From positions 1 through 34,569 of the forward strand of contig JAKYXN010000056.1 of the NCBI GenBank assembly GCA_022538095.1: a stretch of DNA of 34,569 nt, written 5' to 3'. Below the pieces are notes generated by a model. The model ran no database searches. It saw only the letters and a program-made list of their open reading frames with translations, and had not been told where the DNA came from. A program made the position numbers and the translations under genes. Shown one piece after another: positions 1 through 31,667 of this stretch (within the stretch, counting starts at the first letter, position 1; each line of letters opens with the position of its first letter). The stretch is from Puniceicoccaceae bacterium K14 (GTDB lineage Bacteria > Verrucomicrobiota > Verrucomicrobiia > Opitutales > Opitutaceae).

Positions 1-91
1 CCATCCGACACTCGTGTCGCAAGGCTTTGGCAGCCTTGCGCTGCTTCGATTTGCGCTCGAACCAGCAAAGAGTTTATTCACGAACACGCCC
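1..91 (-). repeat. Truncated copy of an inverted-repeat (MITE-like) element
   Basis: Read on the minus strand from 91 down to 1, this matches the first 91 bases of the complete element at 29018-29182, with three mismatches by eye. The outer 18 bases (74-91) are the terminal inverted repeat, one base different from the other copy. A TA dinucleotide follows at 92-93, as beside the complete copy. The inner stem-loop (arms CGACAC/GTGTCG) is present. The other end lies outside the window. The element sits 53 bp beyond the stop codon of the minus-strand nuclease gene, so both copies lie just 3' of a minus-strand gene. Confidence 0.85.
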
Positions 92-5462: not shown

Positions 5463-6509
5463 TCACGGTGATACCTTAAGAGTGTTTTCCTTTATATTCT
5501 CTAGACGTTGTTTTAAAGAGGGGTGAGTCGAAACAAGATCTTCGAACGGCATGTCAGGAGTGCCGGTGTGGAGGATTTGTAGAGCGTCCGCTAGGTCATC
5601 TGGATTATATCCCTGTTGTTGTAAGTGTTTGCAGGAAAATGTATCAGATTCGATTTCGAATTTTTGGGAGTAATGAGATTCAGCTAATAGGGCGGGGAGC
5701 GCGCTTACTATTGACGAGACGCCATTCGCATCGCCAATGGCTAAGGAAATAATTATCAAGATACCGGTGTCTTGAATTACAGATCGGATACCATGTTGTA
5801 GTTCGACATGGCCGATCTCGTGAAGCAAAATGGCTCGCAGTTGATCATCGGAGCACACTTCCACGAGAGCATCGGTGACTACGATTTCTCCGGACGGCAG
5901 TGCAAACGCGTTTTTCCCGATCGCCGGTGCATCTTTGAATGTGAGCTTATATTCATACCCTTCGTCTTTGGGGAGATTGGTTCGGGAAATCGCGTCGAAG
6001 AAAATTTCTTCCAATTCGGCTCTGCGCTCGTCGTCGATGTTGGTCTCACGAAGTATCGTAATCTTCTGCATCAATGCCATAGTGTCTTCTGACATCTTAG
6101 CCCGCATCGACTGTGGTACCGTTTCGGCGATTTTCGAGGCTGCTAGTGGAATACCATAAAGATAGAAAAGTATGCAAAAAACAATGACTGCGAAGACTGA
6201 GAGAATTGCTGACCGCCATCGCTCTTCTAGCTTTTTAATTAGTGAAGCGGTGAATGAGGTCGTGCCTAATTGCTTTTCGAGTGCGTTGAATTTTTCGAAT
6301 TCCGATGTCTCGAACATCGATCCATCGTGGAAGCGAATGATTCTGGGAGTTGAACCGAGTGCCGGTTCAACACGAAAAGAAGGCTCTCGAAATTCGAGTA
6401 CCTCTTCGAAGGCAGTTATCTCAACCCCAGAATCCTGGCTCAGGCTCAAAAGAGCGGGACAAGCATCTGACGAGCCAGCCAAGTAATATTTGCCATTGAT
6501 CGTCGTCAA
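5463..6509 (-). CDS. M48-family zinc metalloprotease, membrane-anchored
   Basis: This is a 348-residue zinc metallopeptidase of family M48. The active site HEIGH lies at 230-234 inside RAILLHEIGHVELQHG, and the third zinc ligand is probably Glu287 in FEIESDTF. An N-terminal domain of about 95 residues with beta-strand character precedes a transmembrane helix at about 101-120. A second hydrophobic stretch lies at 248-275. Translation appears to start at TTG (6507-6509), which overlaps the TGA stop of the upstream DUF898 gene. No ATG occurs before residue 65, so the coupled TTG is the best choice. Pairing of an M48 protease with a YjgN-like membrane protein recurs in other Gram-negative bacteria; the substrate is unknown. 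Family M48 is sure, the physiological role is not. Confidence 0.9.
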   Translation of the reverse strand: MTTINGKYYLAGSSDACPALLSLSQDSGVEITAFEEVLEFREPSFRVEPALGSTPRIIRFHDGSMFETSEFEKFNALEKQLGTTSFTASLIKKLEERWRSAILSVFAVIVFCILFYLYGIPLAASKIAETVPQSMRAKMSEDTMALMQKITILRETNIDDERRAELEEIFFDAISRTNLPKDEGYEYKLTFKDAPAIGKNAFALPSGEIVVTDALVEVCSDDQLRAILLHEIGHVELQHGIRSVIQDTGILIIISLAIGDANGVSSIVSALPALLAESHYSQKFEIESDTFSCKHLQQQGYNPDDLADALQILHTGTPDMPFEDLVSTHPSLKQRLENIKENTLKVSP

Positions 6510-7597
6510 AATCCTACATCAAAGTCCATTGCATCAACGGCTGCTTCGCCCGTTGCGCTTTGGTCGGTTTCGTTTACGCTTTCGTGACTTCCTAGGTCGC
6601 CCTGTTGGCTTACGACGGATATGCTAGAGAGTACCATTTTGGTAGCTCTCACTTTGGCCCAAGCTGAAAGCAGGCCGAGCGAGAAAAATGTGGCAAATAT
6701 GTTTGTGAAATTGAGCCAAACGAATTTCCACACGTTCAAATCGGATTTGAATGAAACATCTTTTTCGTAGCCTAGGGTGAGAACAGACAGATTGTAACGT
6801 AGTGTTTTTGCCCTTATAAATCCAGAAATGAAAGCGAAGCCAATAAAATAGACTAGGTATATTGATCCCATAATCAGAAAAAACATTGGGTCTGTCGCTG
6901 CTGCTCCTTCTTCAACATTTCCAGACTGAAAAATTCCAAATACGATGATAGGCGTCATAAATATAGCCGCAATTGCTATCATTAAGCCCAAAGCGGAGAG
7001 AAAGATTGTATACATTGGGCCGCCTTCTCCCTTGTAACTAAACGGCGTTTTTCCCAATGAAGAATTGTCGAATATGTATTCATATATCTTGAGGCGAAAT
7101 ATAGGAAACATTATGCCGAGCGTGATGTAGGTCAAAAGTGCATAGCCCCAATAAACGGCATACGCATCGCTTGTTCTGCCTAAAAACTTAAAGCGTACAT
7201 TGCGGTAGCTTGTGTTGTGATGTCGAAACCTCAAAGAGGCTGCCATTAGAAAAGGCCCCAGAGCGATCAGTGCCATGATAACAATAAATCCAATGAAAGG
7301 ACTTATAATGTTATTCATTCCAAGAACATAGAGGATGATCGCCGTATAAATCAGCAGATAGCCTTTTAGCATTTTTTTCGGGTCGGCCAAGTAGTCGAAG
7401 CGATGACTATCCAATTCAGTATTCGCGTAGAAGTAGCGGCGTGTTCGTACCATCGCCCATGGGTAGTATATTCCGAGGGTTAGGACGGTTAGTGCGAGAT
7501 TGACTATCCAGATTTTAAAGTACTCCGAAGCGGAGCCATGAAATTGCATGGGAAAGTCTTTCGGACTTGGGGGAGGCGTTGGTGAGGAATCTTCCAT
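6506..7597 (-). CDS. YjgN-like DUF898 multi-pass membrane protein
   Basis: This 363-residue inner-membrane protein belongs to the YjgN/DUF898 family. It opens with the family pattern FHGSASEYFKIW, then LTLGIYYPWAMVRTRRYFYANT. It contains about eight hydrophobic segments, and a second internal copy of the pattern is visible near 288-320 (FVWLNFTNIFATFFSLGLLSAWAKVRATK). The short N-terminal tail is proline-rich (SPTPPPSPKDFP) and the C-terminal tail is acidic. It is the first gene of a two-gene minus-strand unit with the M48 protease, whose start overlaps its stop. The family has no firmly established function. No clear Shine-Dalgarno sequence precedes the ATG. Confidence 0.9.
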   Translation of the reverse strand: MEDSSPTPPPSPKDFPMQFHGSASEYFKIWIVNLALTVLTLGIYYPWAMVRTRRYFYANTELDSHRFDYLADPKKMLKGYLLIYTAIILYVLGMNNIISPFIGFIVIMALIALGPFLMAASLRFRHHNTSYRNVRFKFLGRTSDAYAVYWGYALLTYITLGIMFPIFRLKIYEYIFDNSSLGKTPFSYKGEGGPMYTIFLSALGLMIAIAAIFMTPIIVFGIFQSGNVEEGAAATDPMFFLIMGSIYLVYFIGFAFISGFIRAKTLRYNLSVLTLGYEKDVSFKSDLNVWKFVWLNFTNIFATFFSLGLLSAWAKVRATKMVLSSISVVSQQGDLGSHESVNETDQSATGEAAVDAMDFDVGF

Positions 7598-25557: not shown

Positions 25558-26298
25558 TTACAGAGACGTAATTTCTCTCAAGCTCTTGGCAGCTGATCGG
25601 GAGAGTTGGATTTCGCTTCCGTCTTTCATTTTGAGGAGAAATTTGCCATCGAACCAAACGTTTATGTCCTGTAGCCACGCTAAATTGATGAGAGTTTGGC
25701 GGTTGGCTCGAAAGAAGTGTTTGCTCGGAAGCTTGGCCTCTATTTGCACGAGAGAACGGTGAATCTTGGTTTCTTTGCTATTGTGGTAAATACGACAAAA
25801 GGAACCTTCGCTCTCAATTCTTTGGATTTCATCATAGCCAATGAACCACGCGTTATCGCCATCTTTCAGAAATATTCTGTTGAATGGGTTTCCTTCGTCT
25901 TCTTCGATTGGTTGATGGGCAGTTTTATCAAACTCTTTGATGAATCGTTGAAGGATTTTGTTAAGTCGAGCCGAGTCTATGGGTTTTAAAATGTAGTCGA
26001 AGGCTTGTACCTGAAAGGCCTTAAGGGCGTGCTCCTCGTGGGCAGTTGAGAAGATAATTGGAGGGGCGTCTTCCAGAGATTCGAGTAGTTCGAAGCCTGT
26101 CTTTTCTTGGATGTTGATGTCGAGGAAGATGACATCGGGTTTACTCGTATTGTATTTGCTGAGAGCTTCGTCTAGACTACTAGCGGTTTCGACTTTATCG
26201 AATCGGGGAAAATTGCGGAGAAGGTATTTTATTTGCAGCTGAGCGAGTTCCTCGTCGTCAACGATTAGAGCGTGAATAGGTTTCAAGGCTGTGGTCAT
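25558..26298 (-). CDS. LytTR-family response regulator
   Basis: The 246-residue protein has a receiver domain (about 7-120) with Asp14/Asp15, the phospho-acceptor Asp60 (VIFLDINIQ), Thr85 (IIFSTAHEE) and Lys105 (YILKPID). A LytTR DNA-binding domain follows from about 148 to the end (FIGYDEIQRIESEGSFCRIY, FFRANRQTLINLAWLQDI). It should bind DNA direct repeats and control transcription on phosphorylation. Its ATG overlaps the stop of the histidine kinase by four bases, so the kinase is almost certainly its partner. No Shine-Dalgarno sequence is seen, consistent with translational coupling. Target genes are unknown. Confidence 0.95.
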   Translation of the reverse strand: MTTALKPIHALIVDDEELAQLQIKYLLRNFPRFDKVETASSLDEALSKYNTSKPDVIFLDINIQEKTGFELLESLEDAPPIIFSTAHEEHALKAFQVQAFDYILKPIDSARLNKILQRFIKEFDKTAHQPIEEDEGNPFNRIFLKDGDNAWFIGYDEIQRIESEGSFCRIYHNSKETKIHRSLVQIEAKLPSKHFFRANRQTLINLAWLQDINVWFDGKFLLKMKDGSEIQLSRSAAKSLREITSL

Positions 26299-28865
26299 TG
26301 AGTAAAAACAGAATTTGAAGCGATGGAAATTTCGGTTAAGTGTGTTGATTGCAAGGGGATTGTAAACGAAACAGTGGTACCTCCTGAATCGTTGTTAGCG
26401 AAGTAAAGTTCTTCCGTCGAAAGTTTCAATAGCCAATTGCAAACGGCGATTCCGATACCTGATCCTACTTCTCCTTCGGTTCCACTGCCGTGCACAAATT
26501 TTTTAGAATCGGCGATTTTCGATTGAAAACCTGTAGGTAAGCCGACGCCTTCGTCTCGCACACTCAGCAGAAAAGAGCCATCACTTGGTTCTCCTGAAAT
26601 CGTAATGATCCCTCCTCGATTGCTAAACTTGATGGCGTTGTGCAGGAGATTTCTTAGAATTGTTTTTAAGATGTTTTCGTCAGTTTCGACGACAATCTTT
26701 TTGTCGATATCAACAACTAGTTTGAGTTCTTTGTTAAGTAATGAATTTGAGAATACTTCGGAGGTCGCTTCGATTACTTCGATCAGGACTATAGGTTGTT
26801 CTCTGAGTTCGATGCGAGACATTTGCATTTTTGCCCATTGAAGTAGATTAAGAAGGAGTTGATGCGATTCTGTTGCTGAGCGACGAAGGGAGTTTAATAG
26901 TTTTTTTGCATCGGCATCTTTGGGGATGAAATTTTCCGTATTCACAAACTGCATGCAAAAGGTAAGATTGCCGATAGAGTTTTTGAGATCGTGAGCGATC
27001 ATCGTGAAAAACTGGTCCTTACTCTGATTTACTTCTTGGAGTTGGTCGTTTGAGCGTTTTATAGCGTCATTCTTTTCCTGTAGAGTTTGTCTGATTTTTT
27101 GTAGGTATCGGTAGCGAACGATCGTTAGCAAGAGAATCGCGGCGATTAGGAGGATGGAAATCACCAATATCAAGCGGGTGGATTTTGACTCGCTCAGTTG
27201 CATTCGTTGTAGCTCTTGGTTTCGGTTCAAGAGTTCGATTTGTTGAGCGTTACTTTCCAATTCTAACTCATTAATAATGCGTTCGGATTGTAGTTTGTTG
27301 ATTTCCTTTTGCTTCTGATCGATCTTAGAGATGAATTGCATATTGGATAGGCGAGAAAGGGCTTCTTTACTGAGTATGCTATCTTGTAGTTCGATGTATT
27401 TCTCAGCCGATATCGCTGCGGATTTATCTTCGTTATTTTCTCTTTGTAGTGTGAAAAGCATACGATAACCATCGAGAAGTAAGGTGCTAGCCGCAATTTC
27501 TTCTGCTTCTTTGATTCCTTGCTTAATCAGGTCTATTCCGTACTTCTTTGACCCCTTTTCGAAGTAGAGAGGGCCAAGCTGGATTAGGCTATTGCTTTTG
27601 CCATAGCGGTCGGAAGATTGTTCGTAATATTTTAAGGAGGAGTCGAATTGCGTAATGGCGGATTCGATATTCCCCATATTGCGGTATATTTCTGCCAAAT
27701 TGAATAATGAACCGGCGATACCAATTTCGTCGTGAATAATAGAATACTTATCGAGTGCCTGCCCTGCTGCAAATAAAGCCTTGTCGAAATTTGAATTTTG
27801 AGAATGAACCTGGCTGAGTGTCTTTAGGGCCGATGCAATGTATTTTTGCTTAATATTCTTTTCCTCCAGTTCGAATACGCGGTCCAAGTAAATTTTTGTT
27901 TCGTCGGGATTGCCTGTTGTTTGGTGGATAACAGCGAGTTGCAAAGCGGCGGTCGCGATGTTATCAGCTGTGCCCGTTTCTTCGGCGATGTTTAGCGCAT
28001 CGAGTCCGTGTTTGAGGGCTTGGTCATAGAATCCAATTTTTCGGTAAATGGTAGTGAGGTAGCCTAACAATATTATCTCGTCTCCCTCTCTTTTAGATTT
28101 TGCTGCTGCGTCTAGACCCAAAGTTGCTGCTTCCAGAGCTTTGTCGTAGTCTCCGAGTTTGATTTGGCAGTAGCTTATTAACTCGTAACTCTGTCTTAGA
28201 TCTAAGGGGCGGCCAAAGGTCGGAAGATAATCAGAGGAAAGTAGAGCGTGACTGGCAGCTTCTTTGAATTTGCCTGAGCTTTTTAAAATTTGTGAGAGGT
28301 AAAGGTGGGCTTTGCCGATATGCTTGGGCGGATCGCTTTTAACAGCGGTAGCAATGGCTTGGGAGTAGGAATGTGCAGCTTTCCACTCCATGTCCATTTT
28401 TTCAAAAGTCTTTCCGATACTGAAATGTATCTCCGACACTAGATTTTTATTTTTAGACCTACGACTGTTCTTGAGAGCTTTTAATCCATATTCAAGGGCT
28501 TGATCATAGTCTAGTTTCCAACGTCCGAGATCGGCTAGATTTTCGTACGAATCCGTGATCCAATCAACTGCGTCCACTTTGCTTGCAGATTCGATGAGGC
28601 GTTCGAAACACTTTTGAGAATTTTCATAATCCTCATTGTGTTTGTAGGTTATGCCGAGTTCGAGAAGAGGGCGCCAGTTTTTTGGTGTGTCTCCATTTCT
28701 GAAAAGGGTTACTTGAATGCTTTGTAGCTCGCGTGCAGCTTCTACGGAAGTGTTTGCTCTTAGGCTATGAATCGTTTCGAGGAAGTCGTTTTGAGGCTGA
28801 CCTTGGGATCTACCAAAAACAAGAGCTGGAGCGAACAAAAGAAATATAAAGATGTAGACTCTCAT
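26295..28865 (-). CDS. TPR-containing membrane histidine kinase
   Basis: The 856-residue sensor kinase has a signal peptide (about 1-19, LFAPALVFG). A large periplasmic region of TPR repeats runs from about 40 to 510; repeated patterns include DQALEYGLKAL, DKALEAATLGLDAA and ESAITQFDSSLKYYEQ. A coiled-coil stretch follows at about 515-560, with one transmembrane helix at 565-583. The cytoplasmic H-box FFTMIAHDLKNSIGNL has His625. The HATPase domain shows the N-box (ILRNLLHNAIKFSN), G1 (DEGVGLPTG) and G2 (GSGIGIAVCNWLL). The H-box is of the HisKA type rather than the LytS type usually paired with LytTR regulators. Its stop overlaps the regulator start. The signal sensed is unknown; the TPR array suggests a protein or peptide ligand. 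Confidence 0.93.
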   Translation of the reverse strand: MRVYIFIFLLFAPALVFGRSQGQPQNDFLETIHSLRANTSVEAARELQSIQVTLFRNGDTPKNWRPLLELGITYKHNEDYENSQKCFERLIESASKVDAVDWITDSYENLADLGRWKLDYDQALEYGLKALKNSRRSKNKNLVSEIHFSIGKTFEKMDMEWKAAHSYSQAIATAVKSDPPKHIGKAHLYLSQILKSSGKFKEAASHALLSSDYLPTFGRPLDLRQSYELISYCQIKLGDYDKALEAATLGLDAAAKSKREGDEIILLGYLTTIYRKIGFYDQALKHGLDALNIAEETGTADNIATAALQLAVIHQTTGNPDETKIYLDRVFELEEKNIKQKYIASALKTLSQVHSQNSNFDKALFAAGQALDKYSIIHDEIGIAGSLFNLAEIYRNMGNIESAITQFDSSLKYYEQSSDRYGKSNSLIQLGPLYFEKGSKKYGIDLIKQGIKEAEEIAASTLLLDGYRMLFTLQRENNEDKSAAISAEKYIELQDSILSKEALSRLSNMQFISKIDQKQKEINKLQSERIINELELESNAQQIELLNRNQELQRMQLSESKSTRLILVISILLIAAILLLTIVRYRYLQKIRQTLQEKNDAIKRSNDQLQEVNQSKDQFFTMIAHDLKNSIGNLTFCMQFVNTENFIPKDADAKKLLNSLRRSATESHQLLLNLLQWAKMQMSRIELREQPIVLIEVIEATSEVFSNSLLNKELKLVVDIDKKIVVETDENILKTILRNLLHNAIKFSNRGGIITISGEPSDGSFLLSVRDEGVGLPTGFQSKIADSKKFVHGSGTEGEVGSGIGIAVCNWLLKLSTEELYFANNDSGGTTVSFTIPLQSTHLTEISIASNSVFTQ

Positions 28866-29186
28866 TTTTCTGATAATTAATGAGTTATAAAGACTAGCTG
28901 TGGGGAAGCTTACAATTCGCTAGTCGGCTTGCGGTGTGCCTATCCGCATGCTGGATCAAATGCGGAATTTGTCAATGAAGGCCAACAAACCGCCTTAAAA
29001 TTGGAATTGTGAAGCTAGGGCGTGTTGGTGAATAAACTCTTTGCTGGTTCGAGCCCAAATCGAAGCAGCGCAAGGCTGCCAAAGCCTCGCGACACGAGTG
29101 TCGGATGGCTTTGGCGTATTCGGTTTGAGCTGAATAGCTTCGCGACAGGGCCCATTTTCGAGTGTTATTCACCAACACGCCCTAAG
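28866..29186. other. Intergenic region holding the complete MITE-like element
   Basis: The region runs from the kinase start to the helicase stop. About half is the 165-bp inverted-repeat element at 29018-29182. The remaining 28866-29017 must carry the promoter of the kinase operon; no convincing -35/-10 pair was identified. No gene is seen; the short frames that cross the element do not look coding. Confidence 0.7.
29018..29182 (+). mobile_element. MITE-like element, 165 bp, perfect 18-bp terminal inverted repeats
   Basis: The ends GGGCGTGTTGGTGAATAA (29018-29035) and TTATTCACCAACACGCCC (29165-29182) are perfect inverted complements. The element is flanked on both sides by TA (29016-29017 and 29183-29184), the duplication expected of IS630/Tc1-mariner-type and some IS5-type elements. 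It encodes nothing. Internally it can fold strongly: GCAGC/GCTGC at 29056-29079, GCCAAAGCC/GGCTTTGGC at 29078-29115 and, nested within that, CGACAC/GTGTCG at 29090-29103. A 91-base truncated copy in the opposite orientation begins the window. The right end is two bases from the SNF2 helicase stop, so it could form that mRNA's 3' hairpin. Confidence 0.87.
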
Positions 29187-31667
29187 CTAGAAAAGATTTT
29201 TCATGTCTTCTAAGCTGATTCTCGAATTGGCGGCTTCGCTGGCTTCGAAGATGTTTTCGAGCAATTTCTTTTTCTCACCTTGCATCTGTAGTACCTTTTC
29301 TTCGACGCTGCCGGAAACGATAAGTTTGTAGCTGGTGACAATCTTGTCCTGTCCAATTCTATGAGCACGATCGGTTGCTTGGGCTTCCACAGCCGGATTC
29401 CACCATGGATCGAAGTGAATGACGGTATCGGCTGCAGTGAGATTGAGACCTGTGCCCCCCGCTTTGAGTGATATCAAGAAGAGTGGAATATCGTCCTCGT
29501 CGTTGAAACGATCGACTTCTGCCATGCGATCTTTTGTTTTACCATCGATGTAGCAGTATGGGATCTGTTGGCTGTCCAATTCTTTTTTAAGTAACGAAAG
29601 AATAGATACAAATTGGGAAAATACGAGTATGCGGTGGCCTCCGTCGATGGCTTCTTCGAGTAATTCAAGGAAGCTAGACAGTTTGGGGGAAGCGTCAGCA
29701 GGCAGTTTGTCGTCCAATATTCGCGGATCGCAGCAGACCTGTCGCAGGCGCAAAAGTTGGGTGAGCGTTTTCATGCGAACTGCGCCTTCGCTGGCTCCAC
29801 TCGACTCCAACGCGGATATTTCTTCTGAAGCAGATCGACGTGCGTTATCGTAGGTTGCTTTTTGATCTTTAGTCATATCGACAAAGATGACTTGCTCGAT
29901 CTTTTCCGGAAGTTCGGGTGCAACTTTCAATTTCGAGCGGCGTAGAATGTAAGGGGCCGCTTGATCTTGAATACGTTGCTCGTGCCACTTGCGCTCACCT
30001 CCACGAGCCCCCGAAGGAATGCCTTTCCAGCTTCCTGGCATGATAAAGTCTAAGAGAGAAATGAGATCTTGGATACTGTTTTCAATTGGCGTGCCTGTGA
30101 GCAAAAATCTGCCCTGAGTGTGTAGGGAGGAGATCGCCTTAGCGTTTCGCGTTCGCTTGTTTTTTATGTGCTGAGCTTCATCTCCGATCACACAAAGGAA
30201 GTCTGTGTCTGCGAGCTTCTTTTGGTCGCGAATCAAAGTGCCGTAGGACGTAATGACTAAATCGTACCCGTTAAGATCTTCAGCTTTCTTGATTCGTTGA
30301 GAGCCATGGTTGACAATTACCCGTAATTTGGGAGCAAACTTAACGCTTTCGCGTCGCCAATTTTCAACCAGCGATGCAGGGCAGATGACTAAGCTAGTGC
30401 CTTGTTTTCCTGACTCCTTAAGGGAGGCCAAAAGGGATATCGCTTGGATGGTTTTTCCGAGACCCATTTCGTCGGCTAGGATGCCTCCCAGTTTGTTTTT
30501 GAATAAATGGTGTAGCCAAGAAACTCCAATTTTTTGATACGGGCGAAGCGTTTCTACGAGTCCTTTTGGTATTCGGGGAGTTGCTAGGGAACTCAAATCC
30601 TTAAGAGCAACACTACGTTCTCGCCATGTTTTGGGTGGATTGAAATTAGGGTTGAGTTCGGCTAGATTCTCTTCGATTTGTGGTGTCCGTACGTGAGGAA
30701 TTTGATAGCGACCATGATGGAGGAGAGGTGCGTCGGGTGACTCTGCTAGGACCTGTTGGAGACCGTGGAGTTTTTCCAAGTTTTGTTTTTTAACGAGATA
30801 GACCTTGTCCCCATCTTCGACGTAGTGCCTACCGGTGTTGAAGCTTTGGCTGATTTGTTGCTCGGAAGCTTGGCCGGCTATCACCGATACTGCAACTGTG
30901 TATCCATTTCTTTCTTCGGTCACTTCGGTCCGAATATCGGCGTCTTTCAGTGATTCGGTTCTGGATAGAAAATTCTCGGTGAAGTCGACCCCATAGCGGT
31001 TTTCCAAGTCACCCCAGTGTTCACCTAGAAAATTCAATGTTTGGTGGCGATCGCGTAGCCACCATTTCCGATTTGCCGGTTCTAGTTTGAAACGGTACCC
31101 CTGTAGGAGTTCTCGAAACTCATCATAGTAAGGGTGCTCGCGCGAGGGGAGCTTTATCGCGAGATAGTGAGAGGATCCATCGACGACTGGAGGAGTTCCA
31201 TCAAAAGACTCTTCGAGCGAGGGCTTAGGTGTGGATACAGGTTCGCGGATGCCAGCTGCTTCGCGAAGCGATGGTCCGGAGTCTTCGCCTTTGCTTTCAG
31301 CGGTTTTTTCTTCCTCTTCTTGGGCTACGAACTCACTGACGCCTACCAATTCGCTAAAAACCCAATCGATTGGTTGCTTCGGTTTGTTAGCCCAAAAGAA
31401 CGACGCTTCGCCTGAAAGAGCATCTATCAGTTGCGATAGTTTTTCGCGGTCCAACTGTAAAAAGGACCCTAGTTTGCCTCCACACCACTGGAGTAGGCTA
31501 AAGGCGGCGACTCGTTCTGATTCGCTTAAGGAACCGAGGGCGTCCATCGGTATTTTCTCCGGCTGGCTAATTTTGCCATTGTCCGACTCGACCTCCAATT
31601 TCGTAGGGATGGCATCGCGTGGAGCGCAGGATTCTAGATTCGGTGGAAGTATGATTCTTAGACGCAT
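29187..31667 (-). CDS. SNF2-family DEAD-box-like ATPase/helicase
   Basis: This is an 826-residue SWI2/SNF2-family double-stranded-DNA translocase. An N-terminal region of about 370 residues, not recognised in detail, precedes the ATPase core. Motif I is LADEMGLGKT with Lys405, motif II is DEAQH, and motif III is LLTGTPIEN. The C-terminal helicase lobe has VFSQFVSILSLL, SLKAGGTGLNLTAAD and the SNF2 hallmark HRIGQ. Bacterial members such as RapA remodel protein-DNA or polymerase complexes; the role here is unknown. The ATG at 31667 is the most upstream in-frame start, since a stop lies about 14 codons before it. The stop codon is two bases from the MITE end, so the last codons are intact and not made by the insertion. 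Confidence 0.93.
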   Translation of the reverse strand: MRLRIILPPNLESCAPRDAIPTKLEVESDNGKISQPEKIPMDALGSLSESERVAAFSLLQWCGGKLGSFLQLDREKLSQLIDALSGEASFFWANKPKQPIDWVFSELVGVSEFVAQEEEEKTAESKGEDSGPSLREAAGIREPVSTPKPSLEESFDGTPPVVDGSSHYLAIKLPSREHPYYDEFRELLQGYRFKLEPANRKWWLRDRHQTLNFLGEHWGDLENRYGVDFTENFLSRTESLKDADIRTEVTEERNGYTVAVSVIAGQASEQQISQSFNTGRHYVEDGDKVYLVKKQNLEKLHGLQQVLAESPDAPLLHHGRYQIPHVRTPQIEENLAELNPNFNPPKTWRERSVALKDLSSLATPRIPKGLVETLRPYQKIGVSWLHHLFKNKLGGILADEMGLGKTIQAISLLASLKESGKQGTSLVICPASLVENWRRESVKFAPKLRVIVNHGSQRIKKAEDLNGYDLVITSYGTLIRDQKKLADTDFLCVIGDEAQHIKNKRTRNAKAISSLHTQGRFLLTGTPIENSIQDLISLLDFIMPGSWKGIPSGARGGERKWHEQRIQDQAAPYILRRSKLKVAPELPEKIEQVIFVDMTKDQKATYDNARRSASEEISALESSGASEGAVRMKTLTQLLRLRQVCCDPRILDDKLPADASPKLSSFLELLEEAIDGGHRILVFSQFVSILSLLKKELDSQQIPYCYIDGKTKDRMAEVDRFNDEDDIPLFLISLKAGGTGLNLTAADTVIHFDPWWNPAVEAQATDRAHRIGQDKIVTSYKLIVSGSVEEKVLQMQGEKKKLLENIFEASEAANSRISLEDMKNLF

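Follow-up and report, generated by a model that had tools for sequence, protein, structure and literature searches.

A shortened member of a folded MITE family beside a helicase gene of Puniceicoccaceae bacterium K14, probably moved by an IS5-family transposase

The window, by which we mean the whole stretch of 34,569 bp analysed here, is contig C310 of the draft genome of Puniceicoccaceae bacterium K14 (G000; 5.72 Mb, 358 contigs). Genes for a TPR-histidine kinase and a SNF2-type helicase flank a short element, and the end of a second copy lies at the start of the contig (Table 1). The original prediction described a complete, non-autonomous MITE-like element of 165 bp at 29018-29182, whose 18-bp inverted ends are perfect and flanked by TA. 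The position, the ends and the flanks were borne out, since 29016-29035 and 29165-29184 are 100% complementary over 20 nt with the flanking TA and over 18 bp without it. The element is short, carries terminal inverted repeats and has no coding capacity, as is typical of a MITE. Its strand folds far better than shuffled sequences, with a z-score of -9.02 as DNA and of -9.13 as RNA, and in both cases 0 of 200 shuffles were as good. Neither a tRNA nor a tmRNA was found in the window.

Table 1. Positions of the genes and element parts in the window (R1, covariance model of arm 2; C4, long copy on another contig).
Feature	Position	Strand	Basis or remark
End of second copy, cut at contig end	1..93	-	R1 match 1-62 (+), 60.7 bits, 5' cut
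TPR-histidine kinase, downstream of element	26295..28865	-	reading frame, domains
Short MITE including both flanking TAs	29016..29184	.	165 bp without the TAs
Left 18-bp terminal inverted repeat	29018..29035	+	equals the C110 IS ends except for one base
Arm 2 remnant of the full-length folded core, with 10-nt deletion	29047..29134	-	R1, 78.1 bits; alignment with C4
Small hairpin remnant and short piece of arm 1, remaining arm 1 absent	29135..29163	-	alignment with C4
Right 18-bp terminal inverted repeat	29165..29182	-	sequence
SNF2-type helicase, stop codon beside element	29187..31667	-	reading frame, domains

In a BLAST search of the whole genome at E<=0.001 the 169-bp element matched 18 times, counting itself, and the 18-nt end pattern was found at 29 sites with at most three mismatches, compared to one site for the control pattern. 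A restriction to two places is thereby refuted, and the element is indeed a multi-copy one with TA at its ends. The exact end pattern gave 0 matches in genome_contigs. However, the prediction that the window copy is complete did not hold. A copy on contig C4, 264 bp long with a damaged right end, contains the parts that the window copy is missing, namely most of arm 1 and 10 nt of arm 2, and the alignment with this copy and with full-length relatives identifies the window copy as a shortened deletion derivative. One half of the long form is found at four contig ends (C355, C350, C310 and C87) and the other half at four further ones (C33, C299, C306 and C232), which fits at least four full-length copies in this genome that would have been broken by the assembly. 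The copy at the start of the window is probably half of such a full-length copy. Even shorter derivatives of the family, with ends that match wholly or partly, are present on C121 (G000:C121:12316-12412, about 97 bp) and on C336 (near 6467-6529, about 63 bp).

The original prediction further held that the family appears not to encode a transposase of its own. The genome does not support this view, since two matching ends on contig C110 (97789-98731) enclose a transposase gene and delimit an insertion sequence of 943 bp, whose ends are identical to those of the element at 19 of 20 positions. The transposase carries the domains DDE_Tnp_1 and DUF4096 (PF01609 and PF13340), both above their cut-offs, and reaches 243.5 bits with the NCBIfam IS5 model NF033580, where the cut-off is 110; it is thus a DDE transposase of the IS5 type. 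Among the sites of the end pattern in this genome, the only element seen with matching ends belongs to the IS5 family. Of the two helpers that had been proposed, an IS5-like element is therefore present, while one of the IS630/Tc1-mariner kind is not needed. A run of six A splits the transposase reading frame on C110, and a relative with 69% identity (L089) shares both the run and the kind of split, which suggests programmed frameshifting. Additional ends of the IS are located at contig ends and a broken copy on C323. The three closest named relatives of the transposase come from Verrucomicrobia, Geminisphaera and Puniceicoccaceae, the latter two of which we take to be groups of Verrucomicrobia. 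In six other genomes we found no IS with matching ends; PF01609 was detected in three of the six, at five loci. Beyond the ends, the element and the C110 IS share only matches of 9-16 nt (E 0.27 or worse), and judged by this comparison the interior of the element appears not to be derived from the IS.

The IS5 family uses targets of the YTAR kind. Both the window copy and the C110 IS are flanked by TA on both sides, and a pyrimidine precedes the TA at all 26 TA-starting ends counted in the genome, a count made without the sites on C187, C254, C294 and C314 (three mismatches each, no TA start), with one C292 end of more mismatches added and one C121 end without TA start skipped. The background frequency is 0.494 of 4085 TA sites in the fetched loci. 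Hence, the DDE transposase of the C110 IS most likely acts on the ends of the element and would insert it at YTA sites so that TA flanks it left and right. From these sequence features we infer that the element is transposed by a transposase of the C110 type.

The window copy is a shortened one; in their full form, members of its family are folded units of about 265-270 bp. Full-length relatives, 263-290 bp in size, are found in further genera and also in two other families of the order, and their core consists of a terminal closing stem and two long hairpin arms, with a small hairpin lying between these. A search of 252 genomes of the family with the C4 copy gave matches at E<=0.01 in 18 of them, its own genome included; several of these are short and probably due to chance, and near full-length copies with 81-90% identity to the query were found in G212, G217, G223 and G225. 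The covariance model of arm 2 (R1), built from 12 copies, matched 15 of the 252 family genomes (6 of 49 genera) and 7 of 387 genomes drawn from the phylum, the own genome being included each time and both searches being run with stricter filters that lose weak matches. The phylum matches comprised G218 and G219 again, strong ones in G458 and G609 from other families of the order, and weak ones in G056 and G413. The weak match in G413, a genome from a distant family of the phylum, lies in a long inverted repeat (L304) that contains a small hairpin and one resembling the module, and may be a remote relative. Plasmids and phages gave no match with one element as query each. In viral contigs a 16-nt pattern was found in at least 120 stretches; among the 80 loci listed there was one weak R1 match of 31 bits, which by eye looks like GC-rich coding sequence and was judged to be a chance match.

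In different lineages the same core is bounded by different terminal repeats, of which there are at least four kinds. Type I ends read TAGGGCGTG or similar, type II ends TACCA and type III ends GAGAC, and a single copy has type IV ends (GAAGCACTCCC). Copies of type I and type II occur together in G212. Identical 3-bp flanks, all TTA or TAA, border 11 of 18 type II and III copies, while in the other 7 the flanks differ; for one copy (L289) the anchors gave no location. At five loci (L281, L290, L262, L257 and L296) a further match to the arm 2 model, inverted, falls where arm 1 lies, so the two arms probably represent a single module in opposite orientations.

Several copies deviate from this plan. 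In G221 a longer palindrome takes the place of the arm 2 tip (L258, L261, L262 and L263), and the replaced tip is nearly identical in L261, L262 and L263, as if hairpin tips were exchangeable. Three type I copies of G212 (L284, L285 and L287) contain an unrelated palindromic insert around GTCGAACGTTCGAC in or near arm 1. G458, from another family, has ten arm 2 model matches in one genome. The six copies looked at there (L303, L306, L308, L310, L312 and L314) are mostly near-alike, suggesting recent movement, and in L303 and L312 another palindrome replaces part of arm 1.

The fold is retained despite extensive sequence change. For the alignment of 12 arms (A1) we used 11 of 16 trimmed arms together with L209, omitting L190 and L212 (near copies of L205), L213, L207 and L197 as well as L206, L194, L226 and L056, which the trimming had missed. 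In this alignment, 20 of 27 pairs show changes on both sides, and the covariation score is 0.466; shuffles give 0.161 and slid pairs no more than 0.096. With 30 arms the score is 0.518 (shuffles 0.207, slid pairs at most 0.142). A further alignment (A2) included reverse-strand matches and was used for no count. The full-element set started from 46 sequences, 16 of them without recognised ends. From the other 30 we used 18, leaving out 12 that were cut, short, rearranged or had doubtful ends, with L264 kept for the comparison of shared insertions; adding L296, L289 and L290 gave 21 full elements. These are 47-89% identical to the reference member, from which alone the fold was predicted, and were aligned by sequence only. 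Nevertheless, 88.1% of the cells pair and 88 of 109 pairs have two-sided changes, the two-sided cells numbering 526 versus at most 165 for slid pairs and at most 214 in 300 shuffles. In the 11 type II copies, both bases of 46-52 pairs differ from the reference, and 41-49 of these still pair. Conserved columns cluster in short blocks in many copies. The idea that loops are more conserved than stems was unsupported, as conservation of unpaired core columns was not significantly higher than that of paired ones (p 0.21-0.31).

A comparison of copies that stayed in place with copies that arose by separate insertion bears on what maintains this fold. G218 and G219 have two orthologous insertions in common (L264/L275 and L266/L276), which are 90% and 87% identical over element and flanks. 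At the first, 1 of 96 pairs changed on both sides and 21 on one side only, and 9 pairs were lost; at the second, where the comparison covered arm 2, there were 2 two-sided and 5 one-sided changes. In contrast, three comparisons between separate type I insertions of similar identity (86-89%), which have one member in common, gave 34 two-sided and 16 one-sided changes. The contrast of 34:16 with 1:21 corresponds to a Fisher p of 3e-7, calculated on changes that are not independent. Two further type I comparisons gave 13:8 and 16:9. For five comparisons of type II and III the ratios were 5:16, 0:17, 9:10, 3:7 and 5:11, so the contrast is not general: type I shows it clearly, the other types weakly or not at all. 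Many type II and III copies may have decayed since their insertion, which would fit the weak contrast. Since pairing was restored across several separate insertions and not at the shared one, the fold appears to be tied to movement. In our reading the moving lineage preserves the fold, which decays once a copy has inserted, so that it would most likely be required for movement of the DNA or restored in its course, and would not be maintained by the host.

Overall, we consider it probable that the window element is a MITE moved by an IS5-family transposase, that it was shortened from a member of a folded family whose fold serves movement, and that its site beside the helicase gene is incidental. 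A more far-reaching reading, which we offer only tentatively, is that of a DNA-level cassette of about 265-270 nt, composed of two inverted hairpin modules, which is recognised by its shape in transposition and swaps its ends between kinds of IS. If this were true, the cassette would have exploited several transposases across an order of bacteria.

The pairing could also have arisen from a mutational process, in which a DNA hairpin or cruciform lets one arm serve as template for the other and the fold is not under selection. We regard this as unlikely, but several observations agree with it. G-U and A-C cells are symmetric, with 100 and 81 in the 21 full elements, 39 and 45 in the 30 arms, and 13 and 16 in the 15 well-paired arms (15 of 38, chosen as 98-nt arms in which 19 or more of the 27 pairs form). 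Mismatches between arms are fewer within one element than between copies, with means of 2.6 versus 8.6 of 28 in G221, 1.5 versus 4.2 in G458 and 6.0 versus 9.2 in G031. Moreover, both ends of the window copy have G as their tenth base, which is found at no other of the 26 genome ends (C at 22, T at 2). Copying in place, however, predicts two-sided changes at the shared insertion, where a single one stands against the 21 one-sided changes. A variant in which the arms are copied during transposition is compatible with these counts.

It is still more improbable that the core is a structured non-coding RNA gene which travels inside MITEs and works after transcription. The two-sided changes are as strong as a structured RNA would give, and the short conserved blocks would also suit such a gene. 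A selected RNA strand should, however, favour G-U over A-C. This expectation is general knowledge, and as the two kinds of cells are about equal in all three sets, the balance does not favour an RNA strand. Searches of 18 sources or stretches against Rfam 15 gave no match at the gathering score; below it, only microRNA hairpins matched, and HEARO/OMEGA RNA was not found within these searches. The decay in place of one shared insertion likewise speaks against an RNA gene. Integron attC sites were weighed as well and dropped on visual inspection.

Regarding the neighbouring genes, it had been predicted that the element ends two bases from the helicase stop codon, and this is the case, with AG between the right TA and the stop (29187-29189, minus strand). 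Most of the helicase homologues listed align through residue 825/826, which, together with the stop lying 2 bp outside the TA, argues that the stop was not created by the insertion. A terminator scan of 28600-29500 found no site within the element; the sole terminator-like site, at 29234-29250, is on the other strand, and 1.2 such sites are expected by chance. The suggestion that the element supplies the 3' hairpin of the transcript is thus not supported by the scan. Neither is a conserved operon of helicase and downstream kinase, as a kinase adjoins the helicase homologue in 0 of 19 related loci, of which at least four have less than 600 bp beyond the helicase end. That the element acts on either gene through such a hairpin is therefore very improbable, even though a very stable hairpin lies 2 bp past the stop codon, and the decay of a shared insertion elsewhere points the same way; most likely, the insertion just past the helicase stop is incidental.

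MITEs are commonly regarded as remnants of insertion sequences. In the family described here a large fold persists, with most of its pairs changed on both sides, the core is carried inside several kinds of terminal repeat, and the fold was lost in a copy that stayed put. This raises the question of whether a transposase, or a step of transposition, reads or restores DNA secondary structure in a non-autonomous element. In the open-access literature, covered by titles and the starts of abstracts, we found no description of this family.

With IS5-family MITEs the element shares its short length, the lack of coding capacity, several copies, TA on both sides and ends as in an IS5-family element of the same genome; it differs in an interior not derived from the IS and in a folded core that occurs under several kinds of ends. 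Passages of a review (PMC2229807) describe the ERIC or IRU sequences of enterobacteria as palindromic, with TA ends and target duplication, and present in several genera, ERIC being 127 bp long with 7-bp end repeats. The palindromic structure, the TA at the ends and the spread over several genera are similar here, but the ends are 18 bp, the window copy is 165 bp and full copies, with two arms and a small hairpin, are 263-290 bp, so that the element does not qualify as an ERIC. According to the same passages, CIR of Caulobacter and Brucella has a conserved two-arm fold, unlike the other bacterial repeats of the review, and is tabulated without a terminal inverted repeat (PMC2229807). Our family has such a two-arm fold as well, but here a terminal stem closes the two arms. 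REPINs, in the part of the work consulted (PMC3116915), are mobile palindromic DNA with compensatory changes in the hairpin, and in both respects the REPIN/RAYT system resembles the present one. REPINs combine conserved ends with a variable spacer, whereas here blocks of the core are conserved and the ends differ between lineages.
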